The notes under the pieces: model-generated
Seen by the model: only the letters and a program-made list of their open reading frames with translations
Told to the model about the DNA's origin: nothing
The model's database searches: none
Origin: Actinomycetes bacterium
Lineage (GTDB): Bacteria; Actinomycetota; Acidimicrobiia; Acidimicrobiales; Ilumatobacteraceae
Assembly: GCA_029782355.1 (NCBI GenBank)
Contig: JAKOUY010000023.1
Span: 124,001 to 188,000, forward strand
Length of the DNA: 64,000 nt
Direction of reading: 5' to 3'
Translations under genes and position numbers: made by a program
Shown here: piece after piece, positions 18,920-63,644 of the stretch
Layout: each line of letters starts with the position of its first letter
Numbering within the stretch: position 1 is the first letter of the stretch

Positions 18920-19150
18920 GTGGCTGAGGGACTCGACGTCGATGCGATGATCCAGCGGTTCCGGGATCGTGCCGCGGCGGTGAAGAGCCGCCCGCTGCCG
19001 CCGGTCGCCGGCGAGGAGCGCCGCCGCTTCGTCCAGCAGGCGCAGGTCGACTACCGCGACTTCGCCATCATCGGCGATGCCGAGGCGGCGCTGGAGGATG
19101 GCGTCCTCGTGCTCCGAGTGGACCTGCGTCCCGCCGACCAGCGTTCGTGA
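18920..19150 (+). CDS. Small conserved-looking hypothetical protein
   Basis: 76 residues, charged and soluble, beginning VAEGLDVDAMIQRFRDRA. Arg-rich N-terminal helix, then RPLPPVAGEERRRFV and DYRDFAIIGDAEAALEDGVL. It resembles small cytosolic proteins seen in related actinobacteria but has no known domain. It has its own leaderless-type promoter and is coupled by a GTGA overlap to the permease gene that follows. Confidence 0.75.
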   Translation: MAEGLDVDAMIQRFRDRAAAVKSRPLPPVAGEERRRFVQQAQVDYRDFAIIGDAEAALEDGVLVLRVDLRPADQRS

Positions 19151-20016
19151 CCACCCGCCCGCCGCGGGTCCTGACGCTCTCGGCCTGCTGCCTGGCGGTG
19201 TTCGCCTGGGGCACCGGGGCGCTGCTCGTCCACGCCATCTCCGTCGACACCTACGCCATCGTGTTCTGGCGGATGTGGCTGGCCCAGCCGGTGATGATCG
19301 GACTGGCCGCGGCGAACGAGCGGGCCTTCGCCTGGCGCAAGGTGCTGTCTGCCTGGCCGGCGGGCGTGCTGTTCGCCGGTTCGACCCTGTGCAGCTTTTC
19401 CGCCTTCCGCACGACCTCCATCGCCAACGCCACGCTGATCTCCTCGCTCACCCCGCTGGCCGTGATGCTGGTTGCGCCCCGGTTGTTCGGTGAGCGGCTG
19501 ACCGTCCGGACGGTAACGCTGGCGGCCATTGCCCTCGGTGGGACGGCGATCGTGGTGTTCGGCGCCGGCGGCGGTTCGGGAGCCGGATTGACCGGCGACC
19601 TGCTGGCCGTCGGGTCGCTGGTGCTGTTCTCGGTGTACTTCATCCGCGCCAAGCAGATGCGTGACGCCGGTCTCGGCGCCAGCACCTTCCTGGCCGGCGT
19701 GTTCCTGGTGTCGGCGGTGGTGATGACGCCGGTGGCCCTGATCTTCAGCCACGACCTCGGCAACCTGACCGGCAAGGACGTGGTGCTGCTGGTGTGCATG
19801 GTGTTCGGCCCCGGGCTGACCGGCCACGGGTTGATGACCTGGTCGCAGCGCTACCTGGCGGTGACGACGGCTTCGCTGCTCACCCTGGCCAGCCCGGTGG
19901 TCTCCGCCGTCGGAGCCTGGCTGATCGAGCACCAGCGCCTGTCCGGTGTCCAGGTGGCCGGGATCGCCGTCGTCCTCGCCGCCCTGGCCGGCGTCGTCCA
20001 CTCCCGTCGCGCCTGA
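19147..20016 (+). CDS. EamA/DMT-family permease
   Basis: 289 residues with ten predicted TM helices in two EamA repeats (the second begins near residue 150). Family members are metabolite or drug exporters; substrate cannot be assigned. FWRMWLAQP and SLLTLASPVVSAVGAWLIEH are characteristic EamA positions. The GTG start overlaps the TGA of the 76-residue gene. Confidence 0.88.
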   Translation: MTTRPPRVLTLSACCLAVFAWGTGALLVHAISVDTYAIVFWRMWLAQPVMIGLAAANERAFAWRKVLSAWPAGVLFAGSTLCSFSAFRTTSIANATLISSLTPLAVMLVAPRLFGERLTVRTVTLAAIALGGTAIVVFGAGGGSGAGLTGDLLAVGSLVLFSVYFIRAKQMRDAGLGASTFLAGVFLVSAVVMTPVALIFSHDLGNLTGKDVVLLVCMVFGPGLTGHGLMTWSQRYLAVTTASLLTLASPVVSAVGAWLIEHQRLSGVQVAGIAVVLAALAGVVHSRRA

Positions 20017-20131: not shown

Positions 20132-20600
20132 GGTGACGCCTGCCGATCCCATGGGCGCGCAACCGTGCAGTCCTGCAACATTCCGCGCCCATGGGCCCGG
20201 GGAGGGTCGCCCGTCGGCACCGGGTGGATCGCCATGGGCCCGGGGTGGGTCGCCGTGGGCTGGAGTTGGTCGGCCGTGGGCTGGAAGTGGGTCGTGCGGT
20301 CGGGGTGACGCCTGCCGATCCCATGGGCGCGGAACCGTGCAGTTCTGCAACGTTCCGCGCCCATGGGCCCGGGGATGGTCGCCCGTCGGCACCGGGTGGG
20401 TCGCCATGGGCTGGAGGTGGGTCGCCGTGGGCTGGAGGTGGGTCGTGCGGTCGGGGTGACGCCTGCCGATCCCATGGGCGCAGAACCGTGCAGTTCTGCA
20501 ACGTTCCGCGCCCATGGGCCCGGGGATGGTCGCCCGTCGGCACCGGGTGGATCGCCATGGGCTTGGGGTGGGTCGCCGGTGAAGGGTGGTCGGGGGACCT
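20132..20600. repeat. Tandem array of three palindrome-bearing units with an internal 21-bp VNTR
   Basis: Units start at 20132, 20304 and 20455 (172, 151 and a truncated ~120 bp). Each begins GGTGACGCCTGCCGATCCC and contains a 48-bp hairpin (20148-20195, 20320-20367, 20471-20518); the second is perfect, with 16-bp arms CCCATGGGCGCGGAAC / GTTCCGCGCCCATGGG around a loop that itself holds TGCAG/CTGCA. After the hairpin come 2-3 copies of a 21-bp repeat based on GTGGGTCGCCGTGGGCTGGAG; the one-copy difference explains the 172 vs 151 bp lengths. G-rich sequence follows to 20640. No credible ORF lies in this 656-bp intergenic region. Confidence 0.9.
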
Positions 20601-20672: not shown

Positions 20673-20748
20673 GCGGACGTGGCTCAGCTGGTAGAGCATC
20701 ACCTTGCCAAGGTGAGGGTCGCGGGTTCGAATCCCGTCGTCCGCTCCA
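20673..20748 (+). tRNA. tRNA-Gly (anticodon GCC)
   Basis: Acceptor stem GCGGACG/CGTCCGC, D arm GCTCAGCTGGTAGAGC, anticodon stem TCACC/GGTGA with loop TTGCCAA (anticodon GCC, reads GGC/GGU), T arm GCGGGTTCGAATCCCGT, discriminator U and an encoded CCA at 20746-20748. 76 nt including CCA. It directly follows the palindromic repeat array. Confidence 0.97.
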
Positions 20749-26482: not shown

Positions 26483-26488
26483 ACCCTA
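26483..26488 (-). promoter_or_regulatory. Probable -10 element (TAGGGT) of the TLP1-like gene
   Basis: Minus-strand TAGGGT ends 6 nt before the GTG at 26476. Confidence 0.55.
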
Positions 26489-26490
26489 CC

Positions 26491-26578
26491 GAGCCGCCGG
26501 ATCCCGGCCGGGACCGAGCCGCCGGATCCCGGCCGGGACCGAGCCGCCGGATCCTGGCCGGGACCGGCCGCCGGATCT
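26491..26578. repeat. 25-bp tandem repeat with central palindrome, between divergent promoters
   Basis: Three full copies (26491, 26516, 26541) and a degenerate fourth of GAGCCGCCGGATCCCGGCC plus GGGACC. Each carries the 12-bp palindrome TCCCGGCCGGGA (third copy TCCTGGCCGGGA). The array fills the whole interval between the two divergent -10 boxes at 26483-26488 and 26584-26589. Confidence 0.85.
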
Positions 26579-26583
26579 CCGGG

Positions 26584-31051: not shown

Positions 31052-31612
31052 GTGAACAGGAAGGTGCTGGCGGCGATGGCCGCCGGGCTGATGATGACCG
31101 GCATCGTGGCCTGCGGAGACACGGACAGCGACTCGAGTGCCGCCAAGATCACCGTCGACAAGGCCTGGGCGCGTACCAGCCCGGTGATGGCGGAGACGGG
31201 CGCGGTGTACATGACGCTGACGGCGTCGGCGGCGGACCAGCTGACCAAGGCCGCCGTCGACCCCTCGGTGGCTGCCACCGTCGAGATCCACGAGACCGTG
31301 ACGATGACGCCGGGCGCCGGGACGGCGATGACTGCCGGGACGGCGATGACTGCCGGGACGGCGATGACTGCCGGGACGGCGATGACTGCCGGCACGGGTG
31401 GAGCGATGCCCGGGGCGATGACGATGAAGCCGGTCGCCTCGATCGCCCTGCCCGCCGGGACGGCGGTCGAGCTGAAGCCCGGTGGCTACCACATCATGCT
31501 GTTGAAGCTGGCCAAGCCGCTGGCCACGGGTTCGACCATCAAGGTCACCCTGACGTTCGCCAAGGCGGGCACGATGACCGTCGACGTCCCGGTGCGCGAC
31601 GACGCCCCGTGA
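31052..31612 (+). CDS. PCuAC-type copper chaperone lipoprotein with Met-rich repeat insertion
   Basis: 186 residues from the GTG at 31052 with AGGAGG 5 nt upstream. Lipoprotein signal with Cys21 in GIVAC. The PCuAC/DUF461 pattern is clear: DKAWARTSPVMAETGAVYM, VEIHETV, MKPVASIALPAGTAVELKPG and YHIMLLKL, delivering Cu(I) to cytochrome oxidase or other cuproproteins outside the membrane. Four copies of TAMTAG are inserted between the His-bearing strand and the second Met motif, adding Met residues every six positions. A candidate ECF promoter lies upstream, linking it to the sigma factor at 32712. Confidence 0.9.
   Translation: MNRKVLAAMAAGLMMTGIVACGDTDSDSSAAKITVDKAWARTSPVMAETGAVYMTLTASAADQLTKAAVDPSVAATVEIHETVTMTPGAGTAMTAGTAMTAGTAMTAGTAMTAGTGGAMPGAMTMKPVASIALPAGTAVELKPGGYHIMLLKLAKPLATGSTIKVTLTFAKAGTMTVDVPVRDDAP
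31316..31387 (+). repeat. 18-bp coding repeat, four exact copies
   Basis: GCCGGGACGGCGATGACT repeated four times in frame within the PCuAC gene, encoding AGTAMT units. Exact nucleotide identity implies recent expansion. Confidence 0.95.
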
Positions 31613-55641: not shown

Positions 55642-55924
55642 GCACGCGTGCGCAAACCGACGGAAGCGTCGGTTTCCGCACACGACCAGCCCGCATGCGT
55701 GCGGAGACTTGCGCAAGCGTCGGTTTGCGGACGCAATCAGCCCGCATGGGTGCGGAAACCGACGCTTGCGTCGGTTTGCGCACGCGAGCAGCCGAGCGCA
55801 ATCAGCCGAGCGCAATCAGCCCGCATGCGTGCGGAAACCTGCGGATGCGGCGGTTTGCGCACGCAATCAGCCCGCATGGGTGCGGAAACTTGCGGATGCG
55901 TCGGTTTGCGCACGCGACCAGCCC
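55642..55924. repeat. Five tandem 51-bp units, each with an internal palindrome
   Basis: Units begin at 55642, 55693, 55744, 55823 and 55874, with the consensus GCATGCGTGCGGAAAC, then a variable hairpin, then GCGTCGGTTTGCGCACGCAA plus TCAGCCC. Within a unit GTGCG-AAACCGACGC / GCGTCGGTTT-CGCAC pair as a hairpin (perfect 10-bp inner stem in the third). Unit 3 carries a 28-bp insertion of two 14-bp GAGCGCAATCAGCC copies. It is bordered by a C-rich tract (55580-55640) and a G-rich tract (55925-55987). This 437-bp divergent intergenic region holds no credible gene. Confidence 0.9.
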
Positions 55925-63575: not shown

Positions 63576-63588
63576 CCCCGTCCACGGA

Positions 63589-63632
63589 CGCGACACGGGC
63601 CCGCTCCCTCCCGGGGGCGGGCCCGTGTCGCG
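63589..63632. terminator. Strong bidirectional hairpin terminator
   Basis: A perfect 16-bp stem, CGCGACACGGGCCCGC / GCGGGCCCGTGTCGCG with a 12-nt loop, between the convergent livK and DUF4333 genes. No T-tract. Confidence 0.85.
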
Positions 63633-63644
63633 TGGTCGGCAGGC

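Follow-up and report, generated by a model that had tools for sequence, protein, structure and literature searches.

What is the nested repeat array that lies between a transporter-like gene and a tRNA-Gly gene in this actinomycete of the Ilumatobacteraceae, and what could account for its regular build? The array falls within the 64,000-nucleotide stretch analyzed here (the window; C1:124001-188000 of a 3.79-Mb draft genome), where its parts and neighbors are as follows.

19147 to 20016, plus strand: upstream neighbor gene, judged by eye to encode an EamA/DMT-type transporter; the intergenic stretch 3' of it holds the array
20134 to 20209, no strand assigned: family A element 1, 76 bp long and made of four 18-bp half-sites in the order 18-0-18-4-18-0-18
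20211 to 20294, no strand assigned: 21-bp VNTR of unit 1, with half-sites at 20192, 20235 and 20277 on the minus strand
20306 to 20381, no strand assigned: family A element 2, including a perfect 48-bp hairpin at 20320-20367
20383 to 20445, no strand assigned: 21-bp VNTR of unit 2, with half-sites at 20364, 20407 and 20428 on the minus strand
20457 to 20532, no strand assigned: family A element 3
20534 to 20575, no strand assigned: 21-bp VNTR remnant of unit 3, with a half-site at 20558 on the minus strand
20673 to 20748, plus strand: tRNA-Gly (gcc), a neighbor outside the repeat

This layout bears out much of the preliminary description, which had reported three repeat units ahead of a tRNA-Gly. 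The units start at 20132, 20304 and 20455, and the start-to-start distances of 172 and 151 bp differ by exactly one 21-bp copy, as had been claimed. The 48-bp hairpins span 20148-20195, 20320-20367 and 20471-20518, and the inner TGCAG/CTGCA stem is seen in all three. Perfect 16-bp arms, attributed to every hairpin, are found only in the middle one: in copy 1, the arms contain a C.C mismatch and lack the innermost pairs, and in copy 3 a single position is mismatched. Likewise, the two to three copies of the 21-bp repeat ascribed to each unit fit units 1 and 2 (about three and about two copies) but not unit 3 (about one). The VNTR consists of direct repeats of the outer half-site of the family A element, and short tandem arrays resembling the element edge also adjoin other family A copies (loci L012, L021 and L036). 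An assembly duplicate is ruled out as the origin of the array, because its copies differ from one another and many other contigs carry further copies. Elsewhere in the window, we noticed a lone hairpin with 17-bp perfect arms at 63588-63633 (ACGCGACACGGGCCCGC...), of which no second copy was seen in the scanned sequence, and two short tandem arrays, at 26488-26582 (25-bp unit, 3.8 copies) and 31316-31397 (18-bp unit, 4.6 copies).

The hairpin is not a single occurrence, the case that the preliminary description had named as counting against it. A search of the genome with the array sequence returned many weak copies of what we call family A, and a pattern that holds the 11-bp arms exactly 24 bp apart and tolerates at most 3 mismatches matched 77 times in the 3.79 Mb, compared with 0 times for the same pattern reversed as a control. 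About a third of this draft assembly was read directly, as sampled stretches, with genes called by a home-made codon model; family A clusters were intergenic in 31 of 31 examined, and among these 31 clusters 12 lay at convergent and 4 at divergent gene ends. Alignment of 76 copies yields a gap-free element of 76 bp, in which near-invariant positions adjoin positions with almost no conservation. The element is built of four inverted 18-bp half-sites (consensus YG......CG..CCCA) separated by 0 or 4 bp, which form an 18-4-18 bp lattice with CATG centers 40 bp apart, and half-site distances peak at 18, 22, 40 and 58 bp. When gaps of 10 to 38 bp were allowed, the gap in exact-arm copies was 24 bp in 44 of 47 cases and 25 bp in the other 3.

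Several simpler ideas about family A were set aside. The ends of its copies carry no target-site duplication, which speaks against a MITE and led us to drop the idea of TG..CA transposon ends. Avoidance of CCATGG as a restriction site was also considered, and the observed number was close to that expected. As a separate observation, the arms are asymmetric relative to contig orientation, in that the stem base following GCGCG is often C in the left arm and rarely G in the right one.

Family A is accompanied in this genome by other palindrome families, one of which also has an array in the window.

55643 to 55918, no strand assigned: family B array, five 44-bp elements with CATG-type centers 40 bp apart, mostly at a 51-bp period

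Family B has the form CATGCGTGCGCAAAC-N14-GTTTGCGCACGCATG, with a rigid 18-4-18 geometry, and is dispersed, with element pairs at 51 bp. Families C and D are dispersed in the genome as well and each has one fixed spacing (half-sites of 23-5-23 bp with spacing 37, and of 22-4-22 bp with spacing 30, respectively). Families E and F emerged when 924 kb of the same genome were screened de novo for hairpin families. Family F has one fixed spacing and dispersed copies; family E (TTCTTGTCGTGACAAGA..) is represented by about five copies in the third of the genome that was sampled.

L038 1052-1098, L257 8195-8241, L241 6565-6612, L265 18903-18950 and L013 5550-5597: copies of family E

These families adjoin genes of one kind. 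A 300-aa gene at C1:115998 sits between two family A copies, and its paralogue at C7:374999 (59% identical) is 14 bp from a family B copy on its 3' side, the only side with an element inside 250 bp. Queried with the family A protein, tblastn recovered four relatives from the genome in all, including the family A and B genes themselves; the other two, at C13:163432 and C1:98350, have family C and family D, respectively, on both sides. A fifth nuclease gene emerged from an HMM search of the sampled sequence. It is flanked on either side by family F, with copies near C7:519.7k and 520.7k, and its stop codon falls inside a family F palindrome. Because family F had been defined without reference to any gene, this gene amounts to a blind confirmation; because tblastn had missed it, the list of nuclease genes in this genome is incomplete. 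The five genes found so far thus adjoin five different palindrome families (A, B, C, D and F), four of them on both sides. For family E, no partner nuclease was found in the sequence searched, and its existence without a known partner predicts a further nuclease gene. A tblastn search against plasmids gave no match.

The family A and B proteins match AbiEi models at the N-terminus and a Vsr-like restriction endonuclease domain (MTES_1575/DUF559) at the C-terminus, the latter below curated cut-offs. Across 24 diverse nuclease proteins, residues E198, D230, E241, H248 and D257 do not vary, and we infer that E198, D230, H248 and D257 would supply the letters of an EDxHD motif. Weak profile matches to the PDB (E 0.006-0.07) include a mobile-intron endonuclease (3r3p, E 0.012) and an endonuclease-like protein (3hrl). 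EDxHD homing endonucleases are comparable through the weak match of the nuclease domain to 3r3p. One of them, I-Bth0305I, dimerizes on a target of nearly 60 bp (PMC3943268); unlike it, the proteins described here have an AbiEi-type DNA-binding part, many genomic sites and no intron, and homing by them is only a suggestion. The AbiE type IV toxin-antitoxin systems share the AbiEi-like N-terminal half and differ in that the proteins here carry a C-terminal nuclease domain. For the family A gene, whose neighbors were read by eye as proB and pspA, no AbiEii toxin was found in an operon with it.

Is the association between gene and repeat peculiar to this genome? Among 221 genomes of the host family, arrays were found in one other genus only (g24), and in 395 genomes drawn from the class no comparable arrays were found. 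The g24 arrays follow a 40-bp lattice, mostly comprise about five half-sites and have inner motifs that differ from species to species, and they provide the conservation in relatives that the preliminary description had looked to. Array clusters in relatives lie at convergent gene ends in 14 cases and at divergent ends in 1, some of them being orthologous loci. The nuclease genes allow a broader test. A repeat of at least 12 bp common to both 250-bp flanks was present at 24 of 32 nuclease genes from relatives and the genome itself, compared with 10 of 235 in an unmatched control. By the same criterion, an independent set gave 35 of 37 nuclease genes against 3 of 74 neighboring genes from the same regions (p = 6e-23). 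This statistic counts shared repeats; strong hairpins (score of at least 14) occur at 17 of the 37 genes and 11 of the 74 controls. The repeats at the gene and the dispersed repeats are of one class in the four genomes checked (G000, G193, G197 and G201). Three others (G192, G194 and G195) have the nuclease and, by the pattern used, few or no dispersed family-A-like copies. In genus g6 (L355, L359 and L360), nuclease genes are flanked by near-perfect 59-bp palindromes (TGCGACAAATTGTCGCTTTGTGTACA...), a quite different class of repeat.

At one shared locus, the nuclease and its repeats have altered jointly. The nuclease occupies one syntenic locus in nine genomes, which indicates vertical inheritance there. 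Between two of the genomes, G201 and G202, the neighboring proteins are 98% identical in amino acid sequence, whereas the nuclease is 61% identical and its first 60 residues 48%; the palindromes beside it change from a GCGCCC type to a GGACCC type. At one dispersed locus, the element has switched in place to the GGACCC type at equal length, and one other dispersed element is present in G201 and absent in G202, each of these being a single case. Counts of GGACCC and GCGCCC centers in G202 (400 kb) and G201 (238 kb) were too sparse to reveal a species-wide switch. At L161 2453-2857, compared with G202:C8, G201 has about 317 bp extra, including most of an array and the non-coding sequence that follows. 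More generally, gene similarity correlates with flank similarity (Mantel r 0.33; 2 of 2000 permutations). Among syntenic orthologues, conservation is lowest in the N-terminal third of the protein, presumed to be the DNA-reading part (52%, compared with 69 and 61% for the other thirds).

The cognate link between nuclease genes and repeat families is strongly supported by these data. We propose, with a probability of roughly three in four, that the array consists of the cognate DNA sites of a predicted AbiEi-like winged-helix and Vsr/EDxHD-like nuclease, an arrangement similar to a REPtron with an unrelated enzyme. Spread of the repeats by cut-and-repair can be inferred, and might proceed as follows. 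A dimer of the protein would bind the half-sites as double-stranded DNA through its N-terminal winged helix, and the nuclease would cut there or close by. If another copy then served as the template for repair, this homing-like gene conversion could keep the copies alike and convert or seed sites, with cutting and repair of this kind occasionally giving rise to new copies. Slippage or break repair beside the sites may account for local tandem copying and for the 21-bp VNTR.

Other explanations are less probable. The one that survives best, though we consider it unlikely, is that the sites are operators only: the protein would be an AbiEi-like regulator, the palindromes at its gene would be autoregulatory and the dispersed copies would be its regulon. 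AbiEi antitoxins are indeed autoregulatory and recognize their own operator (PMC7725324 and its reference 69). However, the sites here lie on both sides of the gene and mostly at the 3' ends of genes rather than at promoters, local tandem copying is strong, and the nuclease domain is conserved.

A little less likely again is a 3'-UTR RNA hairpin or terminator at convergent gene ends, selected as an RNA structure. The array hairpins fold strongly (RNA folding z-scores of -5.3 to -8.2), the bias toward convergent ends holds in the genome and in relatives, and some changes in g24 stems preserve pairing. But the last observation is partly confounded, since paired changes can arise where whole g24 arrays share one half-site type. 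Among the 76 copies of the genome itself, variable stem positions show no covariation across the dyad, and correlated columns fall within one half-site, as expected for protein sites. What is conserved in family A is the rigid spacing of double-stranded half-sites rather than base pairing, so the selection on structure suggested by the preliminary description finds no backing in this genome. The length of the loop is fixed, copies also occur in divergent intergenic regions, and each of families A, B, C, D and F matches a nuclease gene. Nor did the array match any Rfam family (only tRNAs matched), which goes against the structured RNA also suggested at the outset.

Sites for a nucleoid protein or topoisomerase, kept by the host and only incidentally linked to the nuclease, are very improbable. 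The dyad lattice and the convergent-gene bias are what favors them, and both are features of gyrase-binding BIMEs. Against this, arrays were found in only two genera of the family, their sequence is species-specific, and the nuclease link was replicated in the independent set and in the blind test with family F. The AbiEi-like nuclease is a better candidate for the partner than the host proteins that the preliminary description had also put forward.

The least probable explanation is a classic REP or REPIN spread by a RAYT (a Y1 HUH transposase): family A is palindromic, high-copy, intergenic, biased toward convergent ends and arranged in inverted pairs, and its arm sequence recurs in Xanthomonadaceae repeats of the form GTAGGAGCGCCCCATGGGCGCGA, but Y1_Tnp (PF01797), which was detected in 5 control genomes, has no match either here or in those genomes of the genus that contain related arrays, the GTAG/GGAG or CGTC terminal tag is missing (the outer end is YGMM-like), and the half-sites vary independently, whereas a RAYT reads a folded single strand (PMC8266576). 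The Xanthomonadaceae likeness is probably convergent, because the search that returned these matches used the arm sequence itself as its pattern. In that family (L055-L152; Luteimonas, Pseudoxanthomonas and others), the repeats are of GTAG type, with the 11-bp arm CCATGGGCGCG and variable spacers. The term 'REP-like' in the preliminary description is apt for the copy number, intergenic position, palindromy, clustering and convergent-end bias; it fails for the tag and for the associated REP transposase that had been envisaged.

The sites of the proposed winged-helix nuclease nonetheless share much with RAYT systems in their organization. As in RAYT/TnpA-REP 'REPtrons', the enzyme gene is flanked by its own palindromes and the same repeats are dispersed between genes. 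The repeat type of RAYT-REP systems can also differ at syntenic enzyme genes, an 'orthoswitch' (PMC3686654), much as the repeats here change at the syntenic nuclease gene. The enzyme differs, being AbiEi-wHTH plus Vsr/EDxHD-like nuclease rather than Y1 HUH, and so, it appears, does the mode of recognition, with the half-sites here acting as rigid double-stranded dyads rather than as folded single strands. A second point of comparison is the CGTC-tagged REPs, which have no known transposase, are mostly inverted dimers and lie at convergent or unidirectional gene ends (PMC3733652). The families described here are similarly REP-like inverted dimers at gene ends; unlike the CGTC-tagged REPs, they have longer half-sites, no CGTC tag and a partner gene.

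We found no description of DUF559, AbiEi or MTES_1575 proteins with such repeats in the open-licence papers searched. It is about an even bet that they represent a repeat-system class of their own, in which winged-helix nucleases maintain and spread families of palindromic sites by double-strand cutting and repair, independently of RAYTs, with several co-diversifying pairs per genome and possibly commonly across Actinomycetota. Many REP-like repeats have no known enzyme, and for the CGTC families the survey left the enzyme open (PMC3733652); here, a non-RAYT candidate can be named, together with its gene and a set of sites of defined geometry. If this is correct, it would point to a function for the many proteins that at present carry only the label 'AbiEi/DUF559', and would offer a natural set of coevolving protein-DNA specificities. 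For this organism, the repeat families that adjoin nuclease genes suggest a route, unlike that of the known REP transposases, by which a genome may acquire and keep scattered repeats.
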